The notes under the pieces were generated by a model. It ran no database searches, was not told the origin of the DNA, and saw nothing but the letters and a program-made list of their open reading frames with translations. A DNA stretch of 64,000 bases from Olleya namhaensis (GTDB lineage: Bacteria > Bacteroidota > Bacteroidia > Flavobacteriales > Flavobacteriaceae): the NCBI RefSeq assembly GCF_900114005.1, contig NZ_FORM01000005.1, positions 62,001 through 126,000 of the forward strand. Reading direction: 5' to 3'. Numbering within the stretch: position 1 is the stretch's first letter; every line of letters starts with the position of its first letter. The translations under genes and the position numbers were made by a program. Below are positions 3,994 through 17,744 of the stretch, in pieces.

Positions 3994-4026
3994 ACCATTT
4001 AAGATTTTAGTAGTCTTAGTAATAGA

Positions 4027-4509
4027 ATGAAAAAAGAAAACCTAAATACAATTAACAATTCCGGATTTAAAGCCCCAAAAGACTATTTTGAAGGTTTAGA
4101 AGATGCTATCCTAACGCAAGCTAAGTTAGAAGCGCATTCTAAAACCGTTAGTTTTAAAGTTCCGGATAATTATTTTGAAACTATTGAAGACTCAATAGTA
4201 GCTAAACTAAATAAGCCTGAACCAAAAGTTTTTAACTTGTTTAGTAAAAAAGTAATTACATCTGTATCTAGTATTGCTGCAGCTATTGTTTTATTATTTA
4301 GTCTAAATCTTTTTAAAAGCACACCTACTCTTGAAAATTTAGACACAGCAACGGTAGAGAATTATATTTTAGATGAAATTGAAATTAATGAACTTGATTT
4401 ATTAATTGATACTTCAGAACTATCACAAAATGATTTTATTAATTACGATTTAATAGAAATCGATGATTATATAGACGATATAGAGTTAAACGATTTATAT
4501 CAAGACTAA
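4027..4509 (+). CDS. putative one-TM anti-sigma protein
   Basis: This 160-residue protein follows the ECF sigma factor by 33 bases. Residues 1-75 are cytoplasmic in the predicted topology and hold an internal repeat: FKAPKDYFEGLEDAI near residue 14 and FKVPDNYFETIEDSI near 43. A single membrane helix (SVSSIAAAIVLLFSLNLF) lies near residues 80-97, and a very acidic Asp/Glu-rich tail follows outside. This layout fits an anti-sigma factor whose N-terminal helices hold the sigma factor. No zinc anti-sigma motif (HxxxCxxC) is present, so the role rests on position and topology only. Confidence 0.6.
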   Translation: MKKENLNTINNSGFKAPKDYFEGLEDAILTQAKLEAHSKTVSFKVPDNYFETIEDSIVAKLNKPEPKVFNLFSKKVITSVSSIAAAIVLLFSLNLFKSTPTLENLDTATVENYILDEIEINELDLLIDTSELSQNDFINYDLIEIDDYIDDIELNDLYQD

Positions 4510-4521
4510 AAAAAAACAGCT

Positions 4522-4968
4522 ATGAAAACACACATTATAACAGTATTAATCTTGCTATTCTCTTTTAGTGCTATTGCACAAAGTGATCATGATAAGCAAC
4601 ATGAAAAACTAAAAGCGTTAAAAGTAGCGCATATTACAGAACAATTAAACTTTAGCACCAAAGAAGCGGAAGCTTTTTGGCCTGTTTACAATAATTTTGA
4701 AGCAGAAAAACACAAACTACGTGAAACTTCTACTGCTAAAAGAAATGATGTAGATTTAGAAAAACTAACAGATAAAGACGCGGAAACCTTAATAAAAGAA
4801 ATGCAAGCCTTAGAACAAGAAAAAGTGCAGAGTTATAAGGTTTACATAGATAAACTTTCTAAAATAATTGGCTACAAAAAAATAGTTTTACTTTTTTCGG
4901 CAGAACGCACATTCAAGAAAAAAATGATACAAGAATATCGTAACAGACATAGAAACGATAAAAAATAA
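4522..4968 (+). CDS. Spy/CpxP-like periplasmic protein (sensor of ECF sigma)
   Basis: This is a 148-residue secreted protein with a signal peptide ending near SAIAQ (residue 20). The mature part is highly charged and helical, with the family-typical stretch LNFSTKEAEAFWPVYNNFEAEKHKLRE. That resembles the LTxxQ-type motifs of Spy, CpxP and CnrX-like proteins, which are small periplasmic chaperones or metal sensors. It lies 12 bases after the putative anti-sigma gene and is followed by a terminator. It probably modulates the sigma/anti-sigma pair from the periplasm; this is inferred from position. Confidence 0.65.
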   Translation: MKTHIITVLILLFSFSAIAQSDHDKQHEKLKALKVAHITEQLNFSTKEAEAFWPVYNNFEAEKHKLRETSTAKRNDVDLEKLTDKDAETLIKEMQALEQEKVQSYKVYIDKLSKIIGYKKIVLLFSAERTFKKKMIQEYRNRHRNDKK

Positions 4969-6267: not shown

Positions 6268-6306
6268 TATAAAAATAGAAAAGCTCCACCATTACAGCGA
6301 AGCTTT
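6268..6306 (-). terminator. terminator-like hairpin after SCO1 gene
   Basis: On the minus strand, AAAGCTTCGC and GTGGAGCTTT pair (with two G-U pairs) around a short loop, followed by a T-rich tail. It fits the end of the YHYH-YwqK-SCO1 unit. Confidence 0.6.
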
Positions 6307-6328
6307 CCTGAAAAATAATCAACCAAAA

Positions 6329-6994
6329 TTATTTATCTTCAATTTCTAAGGTTTTAATATCTGCAATTAATTGTTGTACAGCAGTTTTATTTAAACCATT
6401 ATATATTCCTCTGATGTGTTTATCCTTATCAATTAACACAAAATTTTCAGTATGTAAAAAATCATCATCCGTCTTTTCTCCCCCCAAATCTTCTTCAACA
6501 AAATAAGCTTGTCGTCCTAAGTCATAAATTTGTTTTCGATCTCCGGTTACTAAATGCCATTTATTAGAAATAACACCTTTACCTTCTGCGTAATGTTTTA
6601 ATGTTGACACAGAATCTTTTACTGGTGTAACAGAATGTGACAATAATAAAACCTCAGCATCATCCTTAAATGCGTCTTGTAAAACAGACATGTTTTCCGT
6701 CATTTTTGGACAAATCCCAGGACATGATGTAAAAAAGAAATCGGTAACATAAATTTTATTATCAAACGTCTTCTCTGTAACTTCTTGACCATCTTGGTCC
6801 GTTAAATTAAACTTAGGTATTTTATGAAATGTACTTAAAGCTTCACTTTTACTATCCAACCAATGTGGTGTAAAACTGGCGTCACTATAGTAAGGAAGTC
6901 CATCTACCCTACTACTTTTTTCTTCTACTTGCTCTTTACAACTTAACACGATAAGTGTAATTAGAGCTATAATTATTAGGTTATATTTTTTCAT
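6329..6994 (-). CDS. SCO1/SenC/PrrC family copper protein
   Basis: This is a 221-residue membrane-anchored lipoprotein (lipobox LSCKE near residue 19) with a thioredoxin-like fold. SCO proteins bind copper and deliver it to, or reduce thiols of, the CuA site of cytochrome oxidase. The copper-binding pair CPGIC is near residue 92, after FFFTS, and the third ligand His is in DDFLHTENF near residue 182. All three ligands are kept, so copper binding is expected. It overlaps the upstream YwqK-like gene by 14 bases and ends the unit that starts at the YHYH gene. In this place it may serve the secreted cluster rather than, or as well as, respiration. No oxidase genes are in view. Confidence 0.9.
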   Translation of the reverse strand: MKKYNLIIIALITLIVLSCKEQVEEKSSRVDGLPYYSDASFTPHWLDSKSEALSTFHKIPKFNLTDQDGQEVTEKTFDNKIYVTDFFFTSCPGICPKMTENMSVLQDAFKDDAEVLLLSHSVTPVKDSVSTLKHYAEGKGVISNKWHLVTGDRKQIYDLGRQAYFVEEDLGGEKTDDDFLHTENFVLIDKDKHIRGIYNGLNKTAVQQLIADIKTLEIEDK

Positions 6995-7613
6995 CTTGAA
7001 CTATTTCTTCTTCTAATTGAAAACATAAATTGGCTCTTTTTAGTCCAAAAATACGCCCGTTTTTAGCTTCGTAATTATTGTAAATCTTACCATTACGTCG
7101 CCATGCTTGTTGCATACCTTCTTCTTTACCATTTACAATAGTCATCTGTTTAAATTTTTCGCCAGAAACATACCATTGTTTTTGAATCCCATTTGCAATT
7201 CCGTTAACAAAAATAGACTCTGATCTTAAATTACTGTTAGACCACCAAGATCTAGAAATACCGTTTAATTTTCCTTTAGAATAAAACGCTTCAAAGCTTA
7301 ATAATCCATCCTGAAACCATTTTTTAAAAGCGCCTTCTTTTTCTCCATTTATATAATCGACAGTTTCTGCTTTTTTACCGTTTGGATAATATAAAACCGA
7401 AACCCCACTAAAAGGCTTGTCTTGATAATACACAAGCCCTATGTTTTGTTTAAAGACTAATTTAGACTTAAGAATAAGGACTTCAGACATTCCAATTTGA
7501 GCACTACTTGCAACGTCCTTTTTAACTGCTTTATCTTGGCAATTAAAAAAGAATATAAAACTGAATAAAAAACAGCTTTTATTGAATATTGCTTGGAGTT
7601 CCTTGATAGTCAC
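6981..7613 (-). CDS. YwqK-like MORN-variant repeat protein
   Basis: This is a 210-residue protein built of repeats of the form YYPNGKKAETVDYINGEKEG, GLLSFEAFYSKGKLNG and WYVSGEKFKQMTIVNGKEEG. They match the antitoxin YwqK/MORN-variant family (beta-hairpin repeats). A lipobox-like FFFNC follows a hydrophobic stretch near residue 24, so it is probably a surface or periplasmic lipoprotein. The start chosen is GTG at 7613. It overlaps the end of the YHYH gene by 35 bases and no ATG gives a full signal peptide, so the exact start is uncertain. It is translationally linked to its neighbours on both sides. The toxin-antitoxin name is historical; no toxin is next to it. Confidence 0.65.
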   Translation of the reverse strand: MTIKELQAIFNKSCFLFSFIFFFNCQDKAVKKDVASSAQIGMSEVLILKSKLVFKQNIGLVYYQDKPFSGVSVLYYPNGKKAETVDYINGEKEGAFKKWFQDGLLSFEAFYSKGKLNGISRSWWSNSNLRSESIFVNGIANGIQKQWYVSGEKFKQMTIVNGKEEGMQQAWRRNGKIYNNYEAKNGRIFGLKRANLCFQLEEEIVQDEKI

Positions 7614-8415
7614 CTGGGAATAATATATAGTATGCGTTTAAATATAATTCGTTTTCAATATGGTAATGGTACTCTGCAGTTGTTGTATGTTGTGTAGTAC
7701 TTGTATGCCCTCCTGATACGTCTAAATCTGTAGGGTATGTTCCTGTAGCGTTACATTTACGTCCATAAAGAAAAAAACCATCTGCTATAATACCAATTAA
7801 CTCTTCGTCATCATCAGACCAAGCTTTAGGCTCTAAATGGTAATGGTAACTTTGCGGTCCTGTATGTGCTGCTGTATAATCTAAAGATCCAACTGCGTTA
7901 TCTAAAGGGACATTTGGTCCTTCCTCATCGTTATAAATCACTGATCCAGATACTGATATTCCAATTGCACCTAACCCCGTTGCTGTAGAGCTACTTGCTA
8001 GTTGTGGATCTGCAGATACTGTTAATGAATATGACCCATTAAAATCATCAATATTTCCAGGTGCCATTTGATCATAACTTGTTACCGTTGGCTCTACCCA
8101 CAAAGCGTGATTTGAACTAGAAACGGTAGTCATTGTTTCTCCTCCAGGACCAACTAAAGATCTAGATACTGTATTTGACCAATATGGTGATGTGTGATCA
8201 GGCAATCCATTAGTCTGTATTGTTACATTTGTACCACTTAGTGCTATTGATGTGTTAGTTGTACTAAACTCGCCAAAAGCAGCATGTAACGTTGCTGTAG
8301 TCCCTTCTGAGTCTGTATCTGTATCTGTACTAGATGATGCGTCATCATCACTACATGATACAAAGACTGCACATGCGGTTAATATTAAAAAAGATAATTT
8401 AAATACGTTTTTCAT
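7579..8415 (-). CDS. YHYH-domain lipoprotein 1
   Basis: This is a 278-residue lipoprotein with lipobox VSCSD at about residue 21, then an acidic Ser/Asp/Thr linker. The YHYH domain carries its name motif twice, at about residues 190 (QSYHYHLEPKAW) and 248 (AEYHYHIENE). The intermediate GIIADGFFLYG and DLDVSGGHTS segments are conserved in all four paralogues of this cluster. The YHYH family has no established biochemical role; the clustered histidines suggest metal binding (inference). It has its own copy of the cluster promoter 28 bases upstream of the start and leads a unit with the YwqK-like and SCO1 genes. Confidence 0.82.
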   Translation of the reverse strand: MKNVFKLSFLILTACAVFVSCSDDDASSSTDTDTDSEGTTATLHAAFGEFSTTNTSIALSGTNVTIQTNGLPDHTSPYWSNTVSRSLVGPGGETMTTVSSSNHALWVEPTVTSYDQMAPGNIDDFNGSYSLTVSADPQLASSSTATGLGAIGISVSGSVIYNDEEGPNVPLDNAVGSLDYTAAHTGPQSYHYHLEPKAWSDDDEELIGIIADGFFLYGRKCNATGTYPTDLDVSGGHTSTTQHTTTAEYHYHIENELYLNAYYILFPGDYQGTPSNIQ

Positions 8416-8443: not shown

Positions 8444-8473
8444 TTTAGATGCGTGTTAGAAAAAAAACTTGCG
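8444..8473 (-). promoter_or_regulatory. ECF promoter site P5
   Basis: On the minus strand: CGCAAGTT (8473-8466), 14 bases, then CATCTAAA (8451-8444). It lies 28 bases before the start of the YHYH gene at 8415. It is identical in both boxes to three other sites in the cluster. The A/T runs flanking its -35 box could also form a weak terminator hairpin for the operon upstream. Confidence 0.8.
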
Positions 8474-8486
8474 CTTTTTTTCAAAA

Positions 8487-9629
8487 TTAATTTCTTCCGC
8501 CTTGAGGACGTCCTCCTTGTGGTCTTTGCACTCTACTTTTTGAGGCCTTTTCTATCTCTTCTTTAGTAATAAAACCATCGCTATTACTATCTATTTTTGA
8601 AAAGTCTTCTTTTAAAGGGCCTTTAGCTTCGTTAACAGACAATTTACCATCATTATTAGCATCCATTTGTTCTATTATTTGAGATGGGTTTGGTCGTTCT
8701 CCTTGTCCATTTGGTTGTCCATTTGGTGGTCCTTGTTGCTCTGTTTCTACTTCTCCCATAACGCAACGTCCAACATAAGGAAACTGATTAGTCACTAAAT
8801 ACATATATTTACCATCTACAGTAATACCATTACACTCATCTAAATCTCCATAACCAGCTACATACTCGTAATCAGAGCCATATGTCCCGTCATGATGGCC
8901 ACCAACAGCAATATCCATATGCTGCTTTGGATTATCATAAGTACAATCTTCTCCTTCTCTTGTTCCATCTAATAACTTAAAGCTTGGTTTGTATTGTCCG
9001 CTTTTAGAATAATACATAGGAAAACCATCATGTGCAAAACCAATATGAACTAAATCTTGTCCGCTATCAAATTTAGAAATCATTGATGTAGGTGTCCCGT
9101 GATAATGATACGCTCCGGTTGGTTGTACATGTGCATGATTAAAATCTAAACCAAGATCTATAACATCTTGAATAGCCTCTACACGGTAATTTTCTCCCGT
9201 ATCACAAACTACCACCTCTGCAGTTTGAGGCTCAAATTTAATTCCGTTTAAAGCAACGCCTGGCTCTCTCATCCATTGTGCTTTTCCTGTGAACTTTGGT
9301 GTTACCGGAAATTTATAAGTAATATTTTGAGATGCTATAGTATTTGGGTTACCTGGATTAGGAAAGGTTCCTGTTTCATGATTTGGTAATGAGTTAGTAA
9401 CCATTACACGAGTATCTCCAACAATAGTCACTTTAGTTTTAGTTCCAAAAGCACCATCCTCTAAATCATAATTACCGTAATAATTAGTTGTAGACTTAAC
9501 GACACTTTCTGTGTCATGGGAATGGTTTTCTGAACCATCATGACTATGAGATGTTGTCTTTTTTTGACTATTACAACCATACAAAAGACCTATAATTACG
9601 ACTGCTAAAATTTTAAATATATGTTTCAT
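8487..9629 (-). CDS. YHYH-domain lipoprotein with C-terminal EF-hand pair
   Basis: This is a 380-residue lipoprotein (lipobox LLYGCNS, residue 19). A His-rich stretch SHSHDGSENHSHD comes right after the anchor. The YHYH domain has GAYHYHGT near residue 174, GFAHDGFPMYY near 197 and a GGHHDGTYG loop. After a Pro/Gly/Gln linker come two canonical EF-hand loops, DANNDGKLSVNE and DSNSDGFITKEE, near residues 328-362. The EF-hand pair is very close to the stand-alone protein at 15867-16151, which shares the GPLK.DF.KID spacer. It probably binds calcium through the EF-hands and possibly another metal through the histidines. It is the last gene of the six-gene unit that begins at 13434. Confidence 0.85.
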   Translation of the reverse strand: MKHIFKILAVVIIGLLYGCNSQKKTTSHSHDGSENHSHDTESVVKSTTNYYGNYDLEDGAFGTKTKVTIVGDTRVMVTNSLPNHETGTFPNPGNPNTIASQNITYKFPVTPKFTGKAQWMREPGVALNGIKFEPQTAEVVVCDTGENYRVEAIQDVIDLGLDFNHAHVQPTGAYHYHGTPTSMISKFDSGQDLVHIGFAHDGFPMYYSKSGQYKPSFKLLDGTREGEDCTYDNPKQHMDIAVGGHHDGTYGSDYEYVAGYGDLDECNGITVDGKYMYLVTNQFPYVGRCVMGEVETEQQGPPNGQPNGQGERPNPSQIIEQMDANNDGKLSVNEAKGPLKEDFSKIDSNSDGFITKEEIEKASKSRVQRPQGGRPQGGRN

Positions 9630-9652
9630 CTGTTAGTTTAAATTAATAAAAA

Positions 9653-10174
9653 TTAATCTTTGTTTTTACGTTTAGGTTGCTCCTGATTATCATAAAAAGT
9701 TTTTAGCTCTTCCAAATCTAGTTCACCATCACTATTGGTATCAATCTCACTAAAATGATCCATTAATTCCAATTTCTTTTTAACAGCAACTTCTAATTCG
9801 TTTAATGTTCCGTCTCCGTTATCATCAACTTCCTTAAGTAGTTTTTTAGCTGAAATCTTTTTAGGCTTCTTTCCGTCTAACGAAGCTTTAAGCTCATCCA
9901 AATCTATTACCTCATCTCCATTAGTATCAATAACATCAAAATCCTCTGCTATTTTTCCTCTTTTATCATTTGCAGCTTCGTCTTTATCGATAACCTTATC
10001 TTTATTAGTGTCTAATTTTGAAAGAATCTCTGATGCATCCGGTTTACCACCTCGATCTTGGCCTTTTCCGCCACCTCTTCCGCCTTGACCACCACCCGGA
10101 GGTCCTTGAGCAAATACGCTAAAACATAATAGCATAGAAAAGAGTGTAAGTACTGTTTTAAGATTGTGTTTCAT
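9653..10174 (-). CDS. secreted four-EF-hand protein
   Basis: This is a 173-residue secreted protein: the signal peptide ends at FAQG (residue 22) and a Gly/Arg-rich stretch follows. Four EF-hand loops are seen: DTNKDKVIDKDE, DTNGDEVIDLDE, DDNGDGTLNELE and DTNSDGELDLEE. All keep acidic residues at positions 1, 3, 5 and 12, though the first has Lys in place of the usual Gly. Calcium binding in the periplasm or outside the cell is likely. Its start overlaps the end of the upstream membrane-protein gene by 17 bases, which indicates coupled translation. Confidence 0.85.
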   Translation of the reverse strand: MKHNLKTVLTLFSMLLCFSVFAQGPPGGGQGGRGGGKGQDRGGKPDASEILSKLDTNKDKVIDKDEAANDKRGKIAEDFDVIDTNGDEVIDLDELKASLDGKKPKKISAKKLLKEVDDNGDGTLNELEVAVKKKLELMDHFSEIDTNSDGELDLEELKTFYDNQEQPKRKNKD

Positions 10175-10775
10175 TTTGGTTTGATTTTTTTATATATTTA
10201 TTTGTAACTATTACTACAGGAATCAGAAAAAGAACAAATAGATAACTTTTATTAATTTTTTCTTTTTTTAATATCGCTTTATTATCACTAAATTCTAGTG
10301 CGACTTTATAGTTATTTTCTTTATTTAAAATAACTCTGCTTGTTTTATTATCTATTAAAATTGAAAACACCGATTGATGCAGATTATTTTCTTTAAAAGC
10401 GTCAATATGCACATCCAATGTATTGATATGTTTAGGAAAAAGATCTATAATAAATTTCAAATCAGTTTCATGGTTTCCTAATTTTATTCCGCCTTCTAAA
10501 AGCTTAATTGTAACACCATTTACAATTAAACTAAAATTATCTTTTATATACCCAATTGCTTTTTGCTTATAATCCGCTGCTGATAGTGTTTCCAGATTCA
10601 AATTACTAAAATGTTTTTTTAAAGCTTCATTCAAACCGTTTTGACTTAAACTGATATTTAATATATTAATATCTTCTTTCACTTCTAAATAATACATTGC
10701 TGACAATGGATTATGTGCTCTCACCGAAGTAAAAACAGCTAATAATATTAGCAGTATAATGGTCTTTTTTTTCAT
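10158..10775 (-). CDS. membrane-anchored periplasmic protein with predicted N-terminal His, paralogue A
   Basis: This 205-residue protein is of a family I do not recognise with certainty; it resembles DUF6702-type proteins in layout. The signal peptide is predicted to be cut after SVRA, leaving His-Asn-Pro at the new N-terminus. A periplasmic beta-rich domain (about 21-175) follows, then one C-terminal membrane helix (SYLFVLFLIPVVIVTNKY) and a short basic tail. It is a paralogue of the product of 11749-12366: both begin AH(N/Q)P and share the IKDN(F/L) and LGHET-like segments. A free N-terminal His is a known copper ligand in other families (LPMO, CopC); here this is only a suggestion. It lies 3 bases after the YHYH gene at 10779. 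Confidence 0.6.
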   Translation of the reverse strand: MKKKTIILLILLAVFTSVRAHNPLSAMYYLEVKEDINILNISLSQNGLNEALKKHFSNLNLETLSAADYKQKAIGYIKDNFSLIVNGVTIKLLEGGIKLGNHETDLKFIIDLFPKHINTLDVHIDAFKENNLHQSVFSILIDNKTSRVILNKENNYKVALEFSDNKAILKKEKINKSYLFVLFLIPVVIVTNKYIKKSNQNETQS

Positions 10776-10778
10776 AAT

Positions 10779-11759
10779 TTATTGGAATGAAAAACTATTA
10801 ACCGCTGCGACACCTTTTAAACATTTTGGTACATTAGGCGCGTCTGTTGTACTTGCTACATAATGATAAACACCATCAGGATATTCTGTAGTACTTGCAG
10901 TAATACCACCACACTCATCTAAATCAGAAGGTTCTACTTGATAAGCATATATTGGGAATCCGTCTTTAGCAAAACCTATTAACTGACTTCCTGACACTTG
11001 GTTAATTAATGTACAAGCAACATCATCTATACCGTTAGCTTCTAAAACTTGATTCATTACTTCTGGCACAAAATGCCAATGGTAATAACCTGCAGGATCA
11101 TGATGACCACCACAAGGATCTAAAGAAGGAATATTACCACCAGAGATTCCAGGAACACCGGGACCATTGACTACAGATGGTGGATCTCCATTAATTGGTA
11201 CGCCATCTAAAGACAAACCAACTAATTCTACCGTGTCAATCACGTTGTTACTTGATGCTAAAACTGGCGTCGCTGGAATTAAAAAAGTTAGCAATAAATT
11301 ATTATTAGGAGCAGCTTCTAAACAATACGCAAAATCTGGATTTGTTGCGCCAGAATTGAAATCATCGATATGTATATCGCCATTATCATCCACAATATCA
11401 TAGCCATCAGCTTCCATTGCATTAAACAAACTAGCTTTCATGACCTGAAACCCTGGGTTTGTTGCACCATCATAAATCCCTAATCCTCCAACATCATCAA
11501 TAGTCGTTGGGCAATAAGGACCATTTTCTACCGGATTACTGCTAAACACTAATTGATAACAGTCTCCTTGCGAGCCATCTTCCAATGTACAATCTACTTT
11601 CTCATAAGACACCAGCGATGTCGCATTAAAAAAAGCTTCTTGGATTATATCATCACTTTGATCTTCTGCACTTATACTATCACTATCATCACTGCTGCAG
11701 CTAATAAAAGAAAATACAACCGATACTATTAATCCAAAAATTAGAGTTTTATTTTTCAT
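10779..11759 (-). CDS. YHYH-domain lipoprotein, YHWH variant
   Basis: This is a 326-residue lipoprotein with lipobox ISCSS near residue 21 and an acidic linker. The name motif is changed to YYHWHF near residue 227, preceded by a GGHHDPAG loop. The usual LIGFAKDGFPIYAY and DLDECGG segments follow, with a second, partly lost motif YHYVAS near 301. Several cysteines in the N-terminal half (VDCTLEDG, GDCYQ, YCPTT) match positions in the 12397-13434 paralogue and may form disulfides. It overlaps the upstream gene by 11 bases and is followed 3 bases later by paralogue A, so it repeats the pairing of a YHYH gene with an N-terminal-His gene. Confidence 0.8.
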   Translation of the reverse strand: MKNKTLIFGLIVSVVFSFISCSSDDSDSISAEDQSDDIIQEAFFNATSLVSYEKVDCTLEDGSQGDCYQLVFSSNPVENGPYCPTTIDDVGGLGIYDGATNPGFQVMKASLFNAMEADGYDIVDDNGDIHIDDFNSGATNPDFAYCLEAAPNNNLLLTFLIPATPVLASSNNVIDTVELVGLSLDGVPINGDPPSVVNGPGVPGISGGNIPSLDPCGGHHDPAGYYHWHFVPEVMNQVLEANGIDDVACTLINQVSGSQLIGFAKDGFPIYAYQVEPSDLDECGGITASTTEYPDGVYHYVASTTDAPNVPKCLKGVAAVNSFSFQ

Positions 11760-12366
11760 ATTGTACTTTTTTTGAGATTACTGCTTTTAATAAAATCCCT
11801 AAACCTAAAACCATTAATAAAGCAGAAAGTATTAAAGGAGAAAAGAAGCTAGCTTCATTTACTGTAACTACAACAAACTTGTTATCCTTACTCGCTAACT
11901 TTAGTCTATGATTATTTTTTTTATTTAAAACGAAATGTTCTTTATTAAAGCCATCTTTTAACAGGACTAAAGCACTTTTATTATTATAAATATCTTTAAA
12001 TGCTGTATTTTGAACAGAAACAGTCTTTATAACTGAAGGCACTCCAAGTATTTCATAAACCACTTTTGTTTCATGTCCTAATTTGACAACACCCTTACTA
12101 AGTGTAATGTTTTGGTTATCGTTAAATGTAATTACCAAATTATTTTTAATGTGTTCTAAGACCATTTCCTGAAATTCTTCCGGAGTTTTATATTCAGGAA
12201 AATGTGTTCTGACTTCTTTTTGAAATGCTGTTAAAGACGCACTAATTTGTAGTACCCAAACGTTATTTTCGTTTTGAACCAACATAGTCGTAGAAACTTC
12301 TGGCTGATGCGCTTTCGCTGAAACACCAATCAGTAAAAAAAGAATTAATATAAATTTATTTAGCAT
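11749..12366 (-). CDS. membrane-anchored periplasmic protein with predicted N-terminal His, paralogue B
   Basis: This is a 205-residue protein of the same length and layout as the product of 10158-10775. The signal peptide is probably cut after SAKA, leaving His-Gln-Pro at the mature N-terminus. A periplasmic domain follows with LGHETKVVYEILGVPS near residue 98, then a C-terminal membrane helix (PLILSALLMVLGLGILL) and a basic tail. The family is not firmly recognised and resembles DUF6702 in outline. It lies 30 bases after the first YHYH gene of the unit and overlaps the next by 11 bases. Copper binding through the N-terminal His is a hypothesis. Confidence 0.6.
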   Translation of the reverse strand: MLNKFILILFLLIGVSAKAHQPEVSTTMLVQNENNVWVLQISASLTAFQKEVRTHFPEYKTPEEFQEMVLEHIKNNLVITFNDNQNITLSKGVVKLGHETKVVYEILGVPSVIKTVSVQNTAFKDIYNNKSALVLLKDGFNKEHFVLNKKNNHRLKLASKDNKFVVVTVNEASFFSPLILSALLMVLGLGILLKAVISKKVQYEK

Positions 12367-12396
12367 AATTATATGTTTTAACTCAAAGCGTTGAAC

Positions 12397-13434
12397 CTAT
12401 TCGCTTATGGCGTAAGCTCCTTTTAACCCATTGATAAAATTATTATTACCTGCTTCATCTACATGATAATGGTACCCTCTGCTGTCATCTGTATGACCTC
12501 TTAGCTCATCTAAATCCGAAGGCAAATTACCAGCCTCATCTACTAACTCAAAAATACCATGTCCATCTAAAGCATAACCAATTAAAGCAGAATGGCCATC
12601 TTCTTGTACTATTTTAGTACTAAACCCTGTAGCTGCATGATAGTGATATCCTTGATTTACGTTAATATGCCCACCTGCATCATCAAAAGGTGCTAATGTA
12701 TATGCTGCAAGAATATTATCTGTAGGTGCTGGTGCAGAAAACTCTATACCGTTTAATGCTAGCCCACGTGTTGATGGCACCTCGTCTACAGGTTCTCCAC
12801 CTGGTCCTCCAGGTCCTCCTGCGCCTCCTGCTGTAGCAAATAGTACCGCTTCATCTTGAAGCACTGGAGTAATAGGTATTAACCATGTTTGTGTTAAATC
12901 CGCGATGTAAGACGGAAGACACTCTACACAAAAATTTGCATACTCCTCGCCTACATTTGGATTTGCTGCATTAATACAATCATCTTCTGTTGCTGTGACA
13001 TAAACATCTCCGTTGGCATCATACATCATCCAATTATCGTCGTTATAAAAAGTGGCAAGGTTTTCTATAAAAGCACCATCCACATCGTAAACAGTACCAC
13101 CTTCTAACCAAATCCCTCCATTGTCTGAGGTATCACTTATATTATCCGGACACCAAGGTCCCATTGCATGATCTGATGGCGCACTACTAGTTACAATTTG
13201 ATAACAATCTGTTATTGTACCATCAGATAATGTACAAGGTACTGTAGTAATAGTAACAGAACCACTATCTGTAGTAAAGTAAGTTACATCCACTGCTACC
13301 ACCTGAGAATCTGTATCTGTATCTGTATCTGTATCTGTTGCGTTAGTATTATCATCGCTACTGCAAGAAATAAAACTGACAACAATTACTATTAGAGCAG
13401 GGATTATAGCCCCTTTAATTAATGTGTTTTTCAT
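12397..13434 (-). CDS. YHYH-domain lipoprotein, first gene of six-gene unit
   Basis: This is a 345-residue lipoprotein with lipobox ISCSS near residue 24, followed by a run of alternating Asp and Thr encoded by a hexanucleotide repeat. Paired cysteines are in the N-terminal half. The YHYH domain has QGYHYHAATG near residue 264, ALIGYALDGHGIF near 285, DLDELRGHTDD and a second RGYHYHVDE near 321. It is the first gene after promoter site P4 and starts a closely packed run of six genes down to 8487. Its function is unknown; a secreted or surface metal-binding protein is the simplest guess. Confidence 0.82.
   Translation of the reverse strand: MKNTLIKGAIIPALIVIVVSFISCSSDDNTNATDTDTDTDTDSQVVAVDVTYFTTDSGSVTITTVPCTLSDGTITDCYQIVTSSAPSDHAMGPWCPDNISDTSDNGGIWLEGGTVYDVDGAFIENLATFYNDDNWMMYDANGDVYVTATEDDCINAANPNVGEEYANFCVECLPSYIADLTQTWLIPITPVLQDEAVLFATAGGAGGPGGPGGEPVDEVPSTRGLALNGIEFSAPAPTDNILAAYTLAPFDDAGGHINVNQGYHYHAATGFSTKIVQEDGHSALIGYALDGHGIFELVDEAGNLPSDLDELRGHTDDSRGYHYHVDEAGNNNFINGLKGAYAISE
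13309..13338 (-). repeat. hexanucleotide repeat, five copies
   Basis: Five perfect copies of ATCTGT (ACAGAT on the coding strand) encode a Thr-Asp run just after the lipobox of the YHYH lipoprotein. Copy-number change would lengthen or shorten the linker by two residues without a frameshift. A shorter version (two copies) is in the paralogue near 8315-8328. Confidence 0.9.
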
Positions 13435-13479
13435 GATATTTATTACTTTTAAAGTTGTTTTTATTTAATTGAACTATTC

Positions 13480-13509
13480 TTTAGATGACTTATCTAATCA
13501 AAACTTGCG
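13480..13509 (-). promoter_or_regulatory. ECF promoter site P4
   Basis: On the minus strand: CGCAAGTT (13509-13502), 14 bases, then CATCTAAA (13487-13480). It lies 45 bases before the start of the YHYH gene at 13434. It shares the longer strings GCGCAAGTTTT and CATCTAAAGAATA with P5. Confidence 0.82.
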
Positions 13510-13528
13510 CTAGCGTTATACTTTAAAT

Positions 13529-14278
13529 CTAATTATCTATCTCCTTATTTAACTTATAAGACATCGTCTGTGTTTTTACTCTTAAAATCTTACTATTTAA
13601 TAGTTGGTTTTCGGTCTGCAAAAGTCTATCTACCAGAGCATTTTGATAAGCACGACTATTTAAAAGATCCATATAATTAGAGGTTCTAGTAAACGTTTTA
13701 GTTTTTTTATAACTTAAACCTCGCTCCGATATAATATCTATTAAGGATATGTGAGATTCGATCGCTGGTTGTAAGCGATTAATAATTATATTTTCGATTT
13801 TATTTTCCTGACTTTCAAAACTATCAAGCTCATTTGGATAGCTAGCAATTAGATCTTTTAATAAAACACTTTCTATAAACTCAAATTTATTAGTACTATT
13901 AATCGAGTTTACTGCCCCATTATGAAGTTGAGTTGGTTTATAATTAACTTCTACAATAGCTTTTTTAATTTTATCTGTTAATTGTTCTTTCTCTAAACCA
14001 ATACTTTTAATAGTCTGATTAATATTTTTCACATCTAAGGTGTATCTGTCAATCGACGAGTCTAATAGTGTCAGATTAGCATCTAATTCCTCATTTAGCG
14101 TTTGATATATTTTTAATTCTACAATCCTATTTTTTCTTATTTCATTCATACTATTAATCTTCCACGCTATTAATATTCCAATAACAATTAACAGTATCTC
14201 TCCTAAAGCATACACTAGATAACTCTTTGTTTTTCCTGAGAAGACTAATGAAAGTCTAATTTTCCTGAATACTTTCAT
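13529..14278 (-). CDS. DUF6090-type membrane protein
   Basis: This 249-residue protein has the N-terminal signature of the flavobacterial DUF6090 family: a basic amphipathic start (MKVFRKIRLSLV) and one membrane helix, SYLVYALGEILLIVIGILIAW, near residues 19-39. A long helical, probably periplasmic region follows. No function is established for the family. It sits between the CotH terminator and promoter P4 and has no copy of the cluster promoter motif, so it may be the one gene here outside the regulon or depend on read-through. Confidence 0.7.
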   Translation of the reverse strand: MKVFRKIRLSLVFSGKTKSYLVYALGEILLIVIGILIAWKINSMNEIRKNRIVELKIYQTLNEELDANLTLLDSSIDRYTLDVKNINQTIKSIGLEKEQLTDKIKKAIVEVNYKPTQLHNGAVNSINSTNKFEFIESVLLKDLIASYPNELDSFESQENKIENIIINRLQPAIESHISLIDIISERGLSYKKTKTFTRTSNYMDLLNSRAYQNALVDRLLQTENQLLNSKILRVKTQTMSYKLNKEIDN

Positions 14279-14317
14279 TATTATTTATGTTTTAAAAGTT
14301 ATTAACTCATCCTAATT

Positions 14318-14359
14318 AAAAGAGAAAAGGCCTCTTGAGTTTTACCTCATGAAGCCTTT
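14318..14359 (-). terminator. Rho-independent terminator after CotH gene
   Basis: On the minus strand, AAAGGCTTCATGAG pairs with CTCAAGAGGCCTTT across a short loop (one mismatch, one G-U), followed by a T-rich tail. It ends the EF-hand/CotH unit before the DUF6090 gene. Confidence 0.75.
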
Positions 14360-14393
14360 AACTACCAATCAACCAAAACTTATCATTTTATAT

Positions 14394-15833
14394 TTAATCT
14401 AAATAATCACTAACTGCTGCAGCTCGCGATGTAACATGTGTATTCAACTCGTTAACTGCATTTTGAAAGTCTGAACTATTTTCTAAAAAGCTATACCCTG
14501 CAACTTCCGATGCTGCATAAGGCTCAATTAAAGCTGCATAAGTTGCATACAAAGATTGCATTGTGCTGATACTAAAGGCATCATCCACCACTTCTTGTAC
14601 ATATGTATCATATTGTGTTTTATATACTGCATCTTGATACAAATAGCCAATTAATGGCCATTCAGTACTATTTAGTCCGGAAAAATCTAGTGGTAAAGAC
14701 CCTCCCATTTTCCCTGTTTGTAAGGCTTCATTATTATCCCAAGGAATCCATGTTAATTTACTAGTATCCGGATTATTGTATAAAAAATAATTGTGTGTCA
14801 TTCTACCATACGTATCCCAGTTTTGAACCACTGTATTTACTGCTAAGTATTTTAAAAACACATCCGTATCTAATACAGCATCTAGGTTTGTTCTCCAAGT
14901 CGCAGGGTCAGATGTTCTAGACCCATCATTTACGATAGCTAATAAACTAGCAACATCATCAAAATCGCCTTCATCTTCGTTTGTTTTTTTAACGTATTCG
15001 CTTTCATTATAAGAGCCCAACGCAAAACTTGCGGCATCACCATCTGGCTTGTATAAATTACCATCGTCATCAGAAAACTGTGTATCTAAAACCGTATCAT
15101 CCACTTCTTCCACCATAGTATAAACTCCAAAATACTGTGGTCCATCTCCATGATCTACATACACTGTATAAAATGCGGTATGTGATGCTACTAATCCTGC
15201 ATTTCTGAAAACATCTGTTGCTACTTTTTCACGTAACATAGACTTGTCGTCAAAGTTATTTTTAAGACTTAATTTTTTAAAGCCATAAAAACGTTGGTTA
15301 TCTATTTGCGGATAATCATCTTCAAACTCGTCAAAATCTAATTTAAAAGATAATTTTAAAATCCCATTTTGCCAGCTAGTTTGTAAGCTAGAATTCCCTT
15401 TAAATCTTACACCAACACGGTACCATTCTTTACCATTATAAAATACTTCTGCCGGCACAAAAATTGGATCTTCATCTGTCTCGGTTAGACCGCCACCAGG
15501 TCCTCCAGCGCCAGCGCCAAATGTTCCGTAAAGATTTGTCATATCATCCAACATACTTTGCCAACGTGCTTCTGTAACAACAATATCCAATCGTTTTACT
15601 GCATTATCTTCAAAAACTTCATCAAAATTTGCATCGGCATCTTTACTATGCGTTTCTGCTGTCCAATCTGTGGTTTCAAAATCAGAATCGTCAGTATCTA
15701 CAACAACTTCACCTTCTTCTTCTGTAGTCGTTACGACATCATCATCGTTATTACAAGAGCTAAAGGTTACTAATGTTATACTAAATACTACTGCGACTAC
15801 TAATAGATTTAATTTGCTTTTAATGTATTTCAT
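14394..15833 (-). CDS. CotH kinase family lipoprotein
   Basis: This is a 479-residue lipoprotein with lipobox FSSCNND near residue 27 and an acidic linker. The rest is a CotH domain, an atypical protein-kinase fold known from spore coats, where it phosphorylates secreted coat proteins. Typical segments are visible: RFKGNSSLQTSW near residue 140, the FKKLSLKNNFDDKSMLREK stretch near 190, a YFGVYTMVEEVD segment near 235, NWDTYGRMTHNYFLY near 338 and WIPWDNNEAL near 365. The last two hold the conserved Asp residues of the catalytic and metal sites. It lies 33 bases after a small EF-hand gene and shares promoter P3 with it. Candidate substrates are the co-regulated secreted proteins, which is inference. 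Confidence 0.88.
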   Translation of the reverse strand: MKYIKSKLNLLVVAVVFSITLVTFSSCNNDDDVVTTTEEEGEVVVDTDDSDFETTDWTAETHSKDADANFDEVFEDNAVKRLDIVVTEARWQSMLDDMTNLYGTFGAGAGGPGGGLTETDEDPIFVPAEVFYNGKEWYRVGVRFKGNSSLQTSWQNGILKLSFKLDFDEFEDDYPQIDNQRFYGFKKLSLKNNFDDKSMLREKVATDVFRNAGLVASHTAFYTVYVDHGDGPQYFGVYTMVEEVDDTVLDTQFSDDDGNLYKPDGDAASFALGSYNESEYVKKTNEDEGDFDDVASLLAIVNDGSRTSDPATWRTNLDAVLDTDVFLKYLAVNTVVQNWDTYGRMTHNYFLYNNPDTSKLTWIPWDNNEALQTGKMGGSLPLDFSGLNSTEWPLIGYLYQDAVYKTQYDTYVQEVVDDAFSISTMQSLYATYAALIEPYAASEVAGYSFLENSSDFQNAVNELNTHVTSRAAAVSDYLD

Positions 15834-15866
15834 ATTTTCTTTGGTAAAGTGGTTATGGTAAAAAAA

Positions 15867-16151
15867 TTAGTTACGTGATTTTCTTTCTGGTTTAGGCGCT
15901 TTTTTAAATTCGGCTTCAGAAATAAATCCATCTTCATCTGTATCAATTTTATCAAAATCATTCTTTAAAGGTCCTTTGATTTCTGCTTTAGATAATTTAC
16001 CATCCTCGTCCTTATCCATTTCTTCTAATAACTGACTAAATGTTGGCGGTTCTTTTTTCTGTCTATCATTAGATTGTGCGTTAACACTATTTACATTTAA
16101 TACTGTTAATCCAAAAACTAATACCGCTGTACTTAATATGTTCTTTTTCAT
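15867..16151 (-). CDS. small secreted EF-hand protein
   Basis: This is a 94-residue secreted protein: the signal peptide ends near VNAQS (residue 26). One EF-hand pair follows, DKDEDGKLSKAE and DTDEDGFISEAE, joined by IKGPLKNDFDKI. The pair is nearly the same as that at the C-terminus of the YHYH protein at 8487-9629. It is the first gene after promoter P3 and is followed by CotH. Periplasmic or extracellular calcium binding is likely, and it could be a regulator or a substrate of the kinase next to it. Confidence 0.85.
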   Translation of the reverse strand: MKKNILSTAVLVFGLTVLNVNSVNAQSNDRQKKEPPTFSQLLEEMDKDEDGKLSKAEIKGPLKNDFDKIDTDEDGFISEAEFKKAPKPERKSRN

Positions 16152-16177
16152 ATCTAAATATTTTATTTGTTATGGTA

Positions 16178-16207
16178 TTTAGATGTCTAGTTTTAAAATA
16201 ACTTGTG
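16178..16207 (-). promoter_or_regulatory. ECF promoter site P3
   Basis: On the minus strand: CACAAGTT (16207-16200), 14 bases, then CATCTAAA (16185-16178). It lies 26 bases before the start of the EF-hand gene. It differs from the other four sites by one base in the first box. Confidence 0.78.
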
Positions 16208-16230
16208 CTTAGTTATGTTAAACAAAACAC

Positions 16231-16263
16231 AAAAAAAAGACCTTCATATTACTGAAGGTCTTT
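16231..16263 (-). terminator. Rho-independent terminator of sigma operon 2
   Basis: On the minus strand, AAAGACCTTCA-GTAATA-TGAAGGTCTTT is a perfect stem followed by a run of T. It closes the sigma/anti-sigma/Spy-like unit just before promoter P3. Confidence 0.88.
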
Positions 16264-16289
16264 ATACTATTAATTATCTAGGTTTTGTA

Positions 16290-16751
16290 CTACTCTGATC
16301 TACTCGGATGTTCTGGACCAGGCATATCAAATCGTCGTGCTTTTGTTATAATACTTTTAAACTGCTCTTTTTGAGTGTCATCACACAACTGGTAAATACC
16401 TCTTAGCCTTTTAAACAATTCATTTTCCTTTAAAACAACTTTACCAGCTATGGACGTTGTTAAATTATTTATGTCCTGTTGATTTACGGAGGCTGCAGTG
16501 ATGTTATCAAACAGTTGATCTTTTAACGATTTAATTTCATCTCCTACAGCACGCATAACCTTATGATGCTTAATCTCTAAACTTTTAAACTGTTCTAACT
16601 GCGCGTCGTCAAACTTTAACTCTTTAGCAATAAAATTACCCGACTCTTTTGGACCATTCTGACCAGGACGTCCAATATAATTGAATAGAAAAAAACCATT
16701 CATTATAATTAGTACAATTAATAAAAGATATAAAACTGTATTTTTTTTCAT
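16290..16751 (-). CDS. Spy/CnrX-like periplasmic heavy-metal sensor protein
   Basis: This is a 153-residue protein with an N-terminal membrane anchor (LYLLLIVLIIMNGFFLFNYI) and a helical periplasmic domain. The domain has ELKFDDAQLEQFKSLEIKHHKVMR near residue 45 and LCDDTQKEQFKSII near 128, which correspond to the paired LTxxQ-like motifs of Spy/CpxP/CnrX proteins. CnrX-type proteins sense periplasmic metals and control an ECF sigma factor through an anti-sigma factor. The adjacent HH pair fits a metal site. The gene starts 2 bases after the putative anti-sigma gene. Metal sensing is inferred from family and context. Confidence 0.72.
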   Translation of the reverse strand: MKKNTVLYLLLIVLIIMNGFFLFNYIGRPGQNGPKESGNFIAKELKFDDAQLEQFKSLEIKHHKVMRAVGDEIKSLKDQLFDNITAASVNQQDINNLTTSIAGKVVLKENELFKRLRGIYQLCDDTQKEQFKSIITKARRFDMPGPEHPSRSE

Positions 16752-16753
16752 GA

Positions 16754-17068
16754 TTATAAATTGATTAATGAGCCCTCTGTATTTGAGTTTAACCCGTAAT
16801 CTGAGGCAAAACTAGAAATAGCTTCATTATATTTTGTGCTTTTTATTTGTTGTATTGCGTATACATTTAAAACAACCACGCAAACCAATGTTGCCAACTG
16901 TAACTGTGGCGTAAACCAATACCATGACTTAGATGCTACTTCTTTTTCAGTAAATAAGCGTTGCATTGTTTTATCTTTAAAAAAAGGAGAGACAGTAACC
17001 GCGTCGATACTTTGGGCAGCGTTAATAGTCTGATCTATTTTATCTTGTATGTTTGTATTTGTTTTCAT
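16754..17068 (-). CDS. putative anti-sigma protein, one TM
   Basis: This is a 104-residue protein beginning at ATG 17068 (MKTNTNIQDKIDQ). An in-frame upstream ATG at 17098 overlaps the -35 box of promoter P2, so it is not used here. The short cytoplasmic part has TVSPFFKDKTMQRLF, which resembles the N-terminal segment of other small flavobacterial anti-sigma proteins. One membrane helix (LATLVCVVVLNVYAI) spans about residues 65-80, with a short periplasmic tail. It stands between the sigma gene and the Spy-like gene, the CnrY position in CnrYXH-type systems. The role rests on this context. Confidence 0.62.
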   Translation of the reverse strand: MKTNTNIQDKIDQTINAAQSIDAVTVSPFFKDKTMQRLFTEKEVASKSWYWFTPQLQLATLVCVVVLNVYAIQQIKSTKYNEAISSFASDYGLNSNTEGSLINL

Positions 17069-17078
17069 AATTCTTAGT

Positions 17079-17108
17079 TTTAGATGTTTTATTTTCAAAA
17101 AACTTGCG
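17079..17108 (-). promoter_or_regulatory. ECF promoter site P2
   Basis: On the minus strand: CGCAAGTT (17108-17101), 14 bases, then CATCTAAA (17086-17079). The last base of the second box is 10 bases before ATG 17068, so the transcript would have almost no leader. It would let anti-sigma and sensor be made separately from the sigma factor. Confidence 0.78.
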
Positions 17109-17109
17109 T

Positions 17110-17697
17110 CTAATTATGGTTTTTATAAAATTCTTTTAAAATAATTTGTAAATTCTTTTTAGCTCTAAACAATAAAGACTCGATAGAGCCAATACTCTTT
17201 TTTGTTATTTCGCTTATTTCTTTATAGCTTTTATCATCAATTTTATTTAATGTAAAAACAATACGCTGTGCTTCTGGCAGTTTATTAATTGCTAAAAACA
17301 AGGTTTCGCTAGTTTCTTTTTGCTCCATTACTAATCCAGGATGATTAATCTCTGTAAAATAACTAGCTTTATCTAAGTTATAATCGTTTCCTGATAGGGA
17401 TTGTAAAAAGGCAAAACGTTTCTTAGCTTTCCCCTTCCTGATAAACTCTAAACATTTATTAGTTGCTATTCTATAAATCCAAGTAGACAATTTAGACTGT
17501 CCTTTAAATTTATTTATAGAATTAAAAACTTCTACAAACACCTCCTGCGCAATATCCTCTGCATCCTGTTTATTGGGCACAAACGACAAGCACGTCCCAA
17601 ACACCTTTTGTTGGAAATCGTCCAAAAGCTTACCATAAGCAGCACTTGTTTGGTTTTTAAGTTGTTCTATAAATTCAGTTTCGGTCAAAAAAGGCAA
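17110..17697 (-). CDS. ECF-type sigma factor, proposed master regulator of the YHYH/CotH cluster
   Basis: This is a 195-residue ECF sigma factor. Region 2 holds NKQDAEDIAQEVFVEVFNSI and LSTWIYRIATNKCLEFIRKG (about residues 40-92). Region 4 holds INKLPEAQRIVFTLNKI and the helix-turn-helix KSYKEISEITKKSIGSIESLLFR (about 138-180). It is the head of the minus-strand cluster and has a copy of the repeated promoter motif (P1) directly in front of its start, so autoregulation is likely. Because the same motif precedes four other units down to 8.4 kb, this factor is the best candidate for recognising it. Confidence 0.9.
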   Translation of the reverse strand: MPFLTETEFIEQLKNQTSAAYGKLLDDFQQKVFGTCLSFVPNKQDAEDIAQEVFVEVFNSINKFKGQSKLSTWIYRIATNKCLEFIRKGKAKKRFAFLQSLSGNDYNLDKASYFTEINHPGLVMEQKETSETLFLAINKLPEAQRIVFTLNKIDDKSYKEISEITKKSIGSIESLLFRAKKNLQIILKEFYKNHN

Positions 17698-17714
17698 TTA
17701 TTGTGTTAACTATA

Positions 17715-17744
17715 TTTAGATGCATAAGTTTTAAAAAACTTGCG
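17715..17744 (-). promoter_or_regulatory. ECF promoter site P1 (autoregulatory)
   Basis: On the minus strand: CGCAAGTT (17744-17737), 14 bases, then CATCTAAA (17722-17715). It ends 17 bases before the ATG of the sigma gene. It matches P2, P4 and P5 exactly in both boxes and in spacing. Confidence 0.83.

Follow-up and report, generated by a model that had tools for sequence, protein, structure and literature searches.

What regulator, if any, is shared by the genes for YHYH, CotH, EF-hand and SCO1 proteins that are gathered on the minus strand of one region of the genome of Olleya namhaensis, a member of the Flavobacteriaceae? The window that we analysed is a stretch of 64,000 nucleotides (contig NZ_FORM01000005.1 of assembly GCF_900114005.1, positions 62,001 to 126,000 of the forward strand), and positions are counted from its first letter unless another contig or locus is named. 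A first-pass annotation of this window had proposed that five copies of a bipartite element, CRCAAGTT-N14-CATCTAAA, are promoters for the extracytoplasmic function (ECF) sigma factor encoded in the cluster at 17110-17697, and that they supply both the regulator and the member list of one regulon. The comparisons described below make it very probable that the five sites are promoters of this sigma factor, with the cluster genes as members of its regulon, because the sigma gene and the motif travel together and because the spacing, strand and position of the sites are promoter-like. For a cluster of uncharacterised exported proteins this would supply the regulator, the sequence of its promoters and the membership, in a phylum in which ECF regulation is poorly mapped.

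Copies of the motif in the window and in the genome

All five copies of the motif are present on the minus strand, without a mismatch and with a gap of exactly 14 bases. The predicted promoters P1 (17715-17744) and P2 (17079-17108) precede the sigma gene and the anti-sigma gene, P2 lying one base past the sigma stop codon; P3 (16178-16207) precedes an EF-hand gene and a CotH gene, P4 (13480-13509) an operon of six genes that begins with a YHYH gene, and P5 (8444-8473) a set of YHYH, YwqK and SCO1 genes. The distance from the end of the second box to the start codon ranges from 10 to 45 nt, as had been claimed: it is 10 nt for the anti-sigma gene, 26 for the EF-hand gene, 45 for the six-gene operon, 28 for the YHYH-YwqK-SCO1 set and, for the sigma gene, either 26 nt with a TTG start at 17688 or 17 nt with a TTG start at 17697. 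In 100 dinucleotide shuffles of the window the exact motif did not occur (mean 0.00, largest 0). When one mismatch was allowed the same five copies were recovered and nothing more, and at up to three mismatches there were two extra matches, at 14374 (plus strand, 3 mismatches) and 27696 (plus strand, 2 mismatches), where chance gives 2.25 on average, so that the assertion that the window holds no other complete copy stands.

The first-pass annotation had also suggested a search of the whole genome (36 contigs, 3,522,968 bases or 3.52 Mb), which returned six copies at 0-1 mismatch: the five in the cluster and a sixth with one mismatch, 63 kb away and outside the window (C27:142837-142866). The reversed pattern used as a control gave one. 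Scored with a matrix built from the sites of relatives, the five sites reach 32.5-39.3 and the sixth 21.7, and none of the 24 weaker matches that were scored (24 of 45, L013 and L015-L037, apart from the cluster sites and the sixth) exceeds 12.6. A larger regulon in this genome did not emerge: with up to two mismatches allowed, the core pattern is matched 51 times, compared with 59 times for the reversed control, and the weaker genomic copies are thus indistinguishable from noise.

Conservation of the motif in related loci

If the element is a promoter it might be expected to persist in relatives, as the first-pass annotation had also proposed. The 80 loci that we compared (L038-L117, the best 80 of 196 relatives, each with up to 10 kb on either side) encode sigma proteins 67-89% identical to that of the window. 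On the strand of the sigma gene they hold 236, 65, 13 and 16 matches with 0, 1, 2 and 3 mismatches, respectively, as against 0, 0, 1 and 18 on the other strand and 0, 0, 1 and 12 or 0, 0, 3 and 19 for the two reversed controls; at 0-1 mismatch the sigma strand consequently has 301 sites, and the opposite strand and both controls have 0. Many copies in coding regions had been named as an observation that would speak against a promoter, and none of the 301 sites falls inside a long open reading frame (ORF). With spacers of 8 to 22 bases tried, 259 of 264 core matches on the sigma strand have a spacer of 14, and the other strand yields one match in all. Chance as the origin of the copies can be dismissed on the strength of the shuffles, the strand bias and the fixed spacer. 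The aligned sites share the two boxes and a run of T after CAAGTT. Six bases past the second box an A is preferred (76%), and this A is a possible candidate for the start point of transcription.

The genes that stand directly behind the 301 sites are those for the anti-sigma factor (76 sites), the sigma factor (48), EF-hand proteins (47 of the type behind P3 and 17 others), YHYH proteins (47, 14 and 9, in three sets) and CotH (18), together with 15 unassigned genes and 10 sites without an ORF. Two conserved boxes at a fixed spacing could in principle also form the bipartite operator of a conventional DNA-binding regulator. The element is, however, non-palindromic and locked to one strand, it keeps a short and constant distance to the start codon (21-34 nt from the box in 46 of the 47 EF-hand genes of the P3 type), among 120 genomes of the family it is found only where this sigma factor occurs, and the sigma factor and the sensor described below are the only protein families present in all 80 loci; we regard an operator as very improbable. 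It is even harder to credit that a single upstream region was recently duplicated to give five copies with only the look of a regulon. The paralogous YHYH and EF-hand genes do hint that the cluster has grown by duplication, but the spacers differ among the copies, conservation does not extend beyond the boxes and the run of T, and sites stand before unrelated genes elsewhere in the genomes, as detailed in a later section.

Association of the motif with the sigma gene

In the 120 genomes of the family just mentioned, a homologue of the sigma protein at E 1e-30 or better occurs in 15 (that of O. namhaensis included), and at E 8.5e-78 or better in 13. The exact motif occurs in 12 genomes, all of them within this group of 13, and in none of the 107 others (Fisher p 1.2e-15). 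This sample overlaps in part with the 80 loci, so the two tests are not fully independent. YHYH genes are associated with the sigma gene in a similar manner, being present in 12 of the 13 genomes and in 20 of the 107 (p 2.3e-7). In 74 whole genomes, drawn from those of 76 of the 80 loci (all except L084, L085, L094 and L099), there are 255 exact sites as compared with 2 for the reversed pattern, and 72 of the genomes carry at least one. Nine of the 10 genomes compared within the genus carry the motif at 0-1 mismatch. A one-mismatch copy of the motif is located at G592:C7:80203.

A second set of genes for an ECF sigma factor, an anti-sigma factor and a third protein lies beside the cluster on the plus strand (3448-4968), and the promoters might be read by that sigma factor or by yet another. 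Of the 80 loci, 48 and 51, respectively, do have families like the anti-sigma factor and the third gene of this second module near the cluster, on the opposite strand. The motif, on the other hand, precedes the sigma gene at 17110-17697 and its anti-sigma gene and does not precede the second module, its presence across the 120 genomes tracks the sigma gene at 17110-17697, and a site before the anti-sigma gene exists in all 80 loci, in about 30 of which the second module was not found in the stretch that was fetched. We give the second module, or any other ECF sigma factor, only a slim chance of being the reader of these promoters.

Beyond the family, 18 of 395 genomes of the phylum, that of O. 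namhaensis included, encode a homologue of the sigma protein with an E value of 1e-45 or better. The 17 distant loci (sigma proteins 42-50% identical), scanned at the 14-base spacing, contain nine sites with three or fewer mismatches on the sigma strand, compared with 1, 0 and 1 in the controls; a looser pattern with spacers of 13 to 15 gave no extra site. Seven of the nine, with 1-3 mismatches, belong to a single family, in which they occur in seven of eight loci (L205, L206, L208, L209, L211, L213 and L215) and precede a Spy-like gene directly upstream of the sigma gene. With such sites before Spy-like genes in a distant family, the promoter specificity looks older than the YHYH cluster.

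Extent of the proposed regulon

The first-pass annotation had taken the motif to give both the regulator and the member list of the cluster. The membership of the cluster genes is upheld, and the confinement of the regulon to the cluster is not. The sixth site of O. namhaensis (L007 2338-2367) is followed by genes for a small protein with the sequence CNGKC, an MbnP protein, an MbnH-like di-haem protein and an unassigned protein. The MbnP assignment has a PF20243 match above cut-off (1.2e-44), with the NCBIfam MbnP model below its curated cut-off, and the MbnH-like protein matches PF03150 above cut-off and TIGR04039 at 1.7e-67, yet below the cut-off of that model. An exact site stands before the same MbnP-MbnH operon in two congeners. 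In other genera the additional candidates are genes for sulfatases, CotH, YHYH and type-IX-secreted proteins: 27 of the 255 exact sites in the 74 genomes are on another contig than the sigma gene or hundreds of kilobases from it, with the qualification that 2 of the 27 (G193:C46) are at the end of a contig, as is the sigma locus of that genome, and may continue the cluster. Together with one site in G082, these 28 distal sites precede genes for proteins of type-IX-secreted type (10), sulfatases (4), CotH (4), YHYH (4 sites, 3 genes), EF-hand proteins (2), a VTC-domain protein (1), a MauG-like di-haem peroxidase (1) and two unknown proteins. In the distal sulfatase, CotH and secreted-protein sets a single member per set was identified with Pfam, and the others by resemblance or BLAST.

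Two of these groups can be described further. A gene for a secreted protein of 630-730 amino acids (aa) carries an exact distal site in ten loci (L170, L172 and L177-L184), and in L181 the protein includes a CHU_C type IX secretion domain. Genes with a VTC domain (polyphosphate-polymerase-like) directly behind sites occur in one distal locus (L176 3915-4664, minus strand; by Pfam) and, by resemblance, in four cluster loci, L086 and L109 among them.

Several of our observations sit awkwardly with control by this sigma factor or with the proposed membership. The site before the sigma gene is missing, at up to two mismatches, in 32 of the 80 loci; a housekeeping promoter in its place was considered and rejected, TANNTTTG being no commoner there (5 of 32 as compared with 17 of 48). 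The exact motif is lacking in three of the 15 family genomes with a sigma match at E 1e-30 or better (G076, G086 and G100) and in two of the 74 whole genomes (G123 and G157, both of which carry one-mismatch sites), and the near-complete genome of one congener (G591) has no site at 0-1 mismatch. YHYH genes are present in the 20 of 107 genomes without the sigma gene that were counted above, and a further YHYH gene of O. namhaensis has no site before it, the best match showing five mismatches. CotH did not hold up as a hallmark of the regulon, since genomes with the sigma gene show no enrichment of it (6 of 13 genomes versus 33 of 107, p 0.35). Finally, a search of the genomes of 40 of the 80 loci produced 17 relatives that bear MbnP, and only 3 of them have a site upstream of it at three or fewer mismatches (O. 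marilimosa 1 mismatch, Lacinutrix 2, O. sediminilitoris 3). Since the other 14 have none, the link between motif and MbnP appears to be mostly one of the genus.

The sigma factor and the predicted anti-sigma factor and sensor

The proposed regulator (17110-17697) is a 195-aa ORF that probably starts with TTG at 17688. Of the sigma regions it comprises just 2 and 4 (matches above cut-off to PF04542 and PF08281; TIGR02937), in keeping with the size and domain content of ECF (group 4) sigma factors. Control of its own gene is common, but not universal, among ECF sigma factors, and a site of the motif precedes the sigma gene here and, at 0-1 mismatch, in 48 of the 80 relatives. From the comparison of loci, a bipartite promoter specific to this group also appears to stand before the targets. 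The nearest solved structure by sequence is sigma-E of E. coli (1or7, E 9e-23), and CAAGTT-N16-TCTAAA has the same spacing as sigma-E promoters, the -35 box of which differs from that described here; unlike sigma-E, the present module shows no RseA/RseB-like partner. Copper-responsive sigma factors of the CorE type carry a Cys-rich C-terminal domain, whereas the translated C-terminus of the present protein has no Cys cluster.

The gene that follows (16754-17068) encodes 104 aa with one hydrophobic segment, and its product is predicted to be an anti-sigma factor from position and layout. No Pfam family matches it above cut-off, and the profile of its alignment (A2) finds no match to CnrY at E up to 10, such domains being very divergent; the alignment reveals a conserved motif of the type PFFKDKTMQ ahead of the hydrophobic segment. 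(The alignments used here comprise 43 of 80 sensors, 25 of 78 anti-sigma factors and 42 of 68 YHYH relatives, in each case with the protein of the window.) A class I anti-sigma domain is encoded near only 6% of the ECF sigma factors of Bacteroidetes, according to PMC7406223.

To the account given by the first-pass annotation we can add the next gene, which encodes a predicted membrane-anchored periplasmic sensor (16290-16751), and a terminator-like hairpin downstream of it (16236-16263; 11-pair stem and T run). The sensor is found in all 80 loci, and sigma, anti-sigma and sensor genes are consecutive in 78 of them. Pfam and fold searches point to the LTXXQ/heavy-metal-resistance type and to the CnrX/Spy fold group. 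The protein has a membrane anchor at its N-terminus, and its structure model (pLDDT 84) shows a helical hairpin. Metal_resist and LTXXQ each match 18 of the 44 aligned sensors at E 0.01 or better, and the matches of the window's own sensor lie under the curated cut-offs. With the sensor model as query, CnrX was the top match both in Foldseek (E 0.017, prob 1.00, target-normalised TM 0.76-0.85, with Spy, ZraP and CpxP further down) and in VIA (Z 11.9, 104 residues, 2.3 A). The sequence profile of the sensor matches Spy at E 3.5e-4, and assignment to the wider Spy/LTXXQ group is supported by these searches. Residues H62 (43 of 44), M66 (36 of 44) and D78 (41 of 44) are conserved.

Given a third gene whose predicted product is anchored, periplasmic and of the CnrX/Spy fold group, the module probably operates in the manner of CnrYXH, the cobalt and nickel resistance regulator of Cupriavidus metallidurans with its class II anti-sigma factor CnrY. 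In both, an ECF sigma factor, a short single-pass anti-sigma factor and an anchored periplasmic sensor are encoded together (the topology being read here from the sequence), and the model of the present sensor is closest to CnrX. CnrYXH also has sigma-dependent promoters before its regulator genes and its targets (cnrYp and cnrCp), as seems to be the case here (PMC9045368). The two differ in that the order here is sigma, anti-sigma, sensor with a promoter between the first two, in that the targets here are genes for YHYH, EF-hand, CotH and SCO1 proteins instead of the RND efflux pump of CnrYXH, and in that the anti-sigma factor has no detectable match to CnrY. Pfam scans of the genes that follow the five sites and the sixth detected no RND metal efflux family. 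The module is a probable functional analogue of CnrYXH and only a possible member of the CnrYXH type.

Two other systems invite comparison. The MbnIRT/FecI-FecR-type systems of methanotrophs likewise have ECF sigma factors linked to, and located beside, the MbnP-MbnH pair (PMC3621798). In contrast to them, Pfam scans detected no FecR domain in the anti-sigma factor or sensor described here, nor did any gene of the cluster prove to encode a TonB receptor. The SM6 promoters of Flavobacterium psychrophilum are also flavobacterial, have mapped starts, are ascribed to an ECF sigma factor, and include one before a sigma-anti-sigma pair; they differ by a conserved CGT in the -10 region and by targets of type IX secretion, where the present sites have CATCTAAA with CRCAAGTT (PMC9723704). 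Among the open-access papers listed, judged by title and beginning of the abstract, none dealt with this motif, this module or the regulation of YHYH.

The nature of the signal

While the cell is at rest, the single-pass protein of 104 aa would tether the sigma factor at the membrane, as CnrY does with CnrH, and the anchored protein of the CnrX/Spy fold would monitor the periplasm as CnrX does. A periplasmic signal might alter the sensor such that the anti-sigma factor releases the sigma factor, and the holoenzyme would then start the five transcripts. The output would be the exported EF-hand, CotH, YHYH, YwqK-like and SCO1 proteins and, in this genus, the products of the MbnP-MbnH operon elsewhere in the genome.

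A periplasmic metal, with copper as the first candidate, is the leading proposal for the signal, at about even chances with envelope stress. Counted in favour of copper are the SCO1 gene behind YHYH and YwqK, the three being consecutive in 60 of the 80 loci, and the MbnP-MbnH operon behind the sixth site. According to PMC3621798, no data at the time of its writing linked close homologues of MbnP to copper. With the same sigma factor and the same promoters, the signal might instead be envelope damage or misfolded secreted protein, perceived through a Spy/CpxP-like sensor and without involvement of copper. That alternative, to which we allow somewhat less than an even chance, draws on the sequence profile of the sensor, which matches Spy and not CnrX, on the presence of CpxP and Spy among the fold matches, on the motif before the Spy-like gene adjoining the sigma gene in seven loci of one distant family, and on the many targets that are secreted or type-IX-secreted. 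It has more difficulty with the retention of SCO1 in its operon, with MbnP-MbnH operons behind exact sites in two congeners, with the 18 of 44 sensors that match Metal_resist (LTXXQ matches equally many) and with the finding of no protease or chaperone family among the cluster genes of the window.

For a metal-sensing, CnrX-like sensor there are points on the debit side as well. None of the Foldseek matches of the sensor reaches E 0.001, and a VIA score of Z 11.9 falls in the range, under about 13, that is weak for helical bundles. A later His is present in 27 of the 44 sensors and replaced by Arg in that of the window, and the likely metal ligands are hence not all invariant; promoters before Spy-like genes in the distant family fit envelope stress as well as metal. 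A further proposal, that of a periplasmic copper switch of the Bacteroidota in which YHYH proteins are secreted copper-handling proteins acting with SCO1 and MbnP-MbnH, held down by a near-leaderless anti-sigma transcript and an invariant weak TTG, is one that we consider rather unlikely. Under either signal, the function of YHYH proteins would become testable by asking which metal or stress induces their genes.

Translation starts and proposed feedback

At the place of position 17688 a TTG is found in all 80 loci, and an in-frame ATG lies near the sigma start in only 2 of them, as compared with 79 of 80 for the anti-sigma gene and 79 of 80 for the sensor gene. The start is mixed among the 17 distant sigma homologues, 5 of which have TTG at that place. 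The box is 15 nt or less from the ATG of the anti-sigma gene in 54 of 76 sites (median 9). If transcription begins about six bases past the box, the anti-sigma message would be nearly leaderless. Leaderless mRNAs are uncommon in F. psychrophilum, amounting to 5.5% of those examined (PMC9723704).

A site precedes the anti-sigma gene in 76 of the 80 loci at 0-1 mismatch and in all 80 at up to two. As judged from these counts, the conserved core of the switch is the site before the anti-sigma and sensor genes, rather than autoregulation of the sigma gene. The sigma factor would also fire a dedicated promoter for its own antagonist and sensor. This negative feedback would be better conserved than the positive loop on the sigma gene. 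The TTG start should keep the sigma factor low against an anti-sigma factor that starts with ATG, and the weak start and the prompt anti-sigma factor should both hold the switch down. The very specific pair of promoter and sigma factor could find use in Bacteroidota as an orthogonal part, and the same switch appears to recur in dozens of related bacteria.

Genes of the cluster

In minus-strand order the cluster reads P1-sigma; P2-anti-sigma-sensor-hairpin; P3-EF-hand-CotH; P4 and its six genes; P5-YHYH-YwqK-SCO1-hairpin. The core families occur in the 80 loci with unequal frequency (sensor 80, sigma 80, anti-sigma 78, EF-hand 62, YHYH of the P5 type 62, YwqK 60, SCO1 60 and CotH 34). Of the first genes behind sites that do not encode regulators, 186 of 190 specify an N-terminal hydrophobic stretch; in a crude test a hydrophobic N-terminus was seen in 384 of 402 members of the cluster families and in 274 of 570 neighbours on the opposite strand. 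The predicted targets (EF-hand, YHYH, CotH, YwqK-like and SCO1 proteins) would thus be mostly exported.

Behind P3 are genes for a secreted EF-hand protein of 94 aa (15867-16151; PF13202 and PF00036 above cut-off) and for a CotH-type protein kinase, a lipoprotein by its N-terminus (14394-15833; PF08757, E 1.5e-73). The operon behind P4 encodes, in order, a YHYH lipoprotein (12397-13434; PF14240, 34.9 bits), a DUF6702-like exported protein (11749-12366; PF20420 at 17.3 bits, under the cut-off of 24), a second YHYH lipoprotein (10779-11759; 84.8 bits), an exported protein without Pfam families that resembles the product of 11749-12366 in size and layout as read from the sequence (10158-10775), a secreted EF-hand protein of 173 aa (9653-10174; PF13405 and PF13202) and a YHYH protein with C-terminal EF-hands (8487-9629; PF14240, 183.2 bits, and EF-hand). 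P5 is followed by a YHYH lipoprotein gene (7579-8415; PF14240, 44 bits), by a gene for a YwqK/MORN_2-repeat protein that overlaps both of its neighbours (6981-7613; PF07661, 30.7 bits, cut-off 29.6), by a gene for a SCO1/SenC-type protein, the translation of which contains CPGIC and, further on, a His (6329-6994; PF02630, E 2.8e-26) and by a terminator-like hairpin of 15 pairs (6277-6309, minus strand). Terminator-like sites in the region number 7, which is not above the chance mean of 6.1.

Four proteins of the window exceed the PF14240 (YHYH) cut-off of 25, with scores from 34.9 to 183.2 bits. Our searches turned up no function for the family, and the structure model of the YHYH protein is poor (mean pLDDT 55). 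Among the 43 aligned sequences of the YHYH protein encoded at 7579-8415 and its relatives there are six invariant His (74, 191, 193, 237, 250 and 252) and two YHYH motifs; the invariant His residues suggest a metal site. The further YHYH gene of this genome (G000:C13:149561-149851, L219) stands after ABC-transporter genes. Between the CotH and YHYH operons lies a DUF6090-like gene (13529-14278, below cut-off), which is without a motif site of its own and the family of which is present in 23 of the 80 loci.

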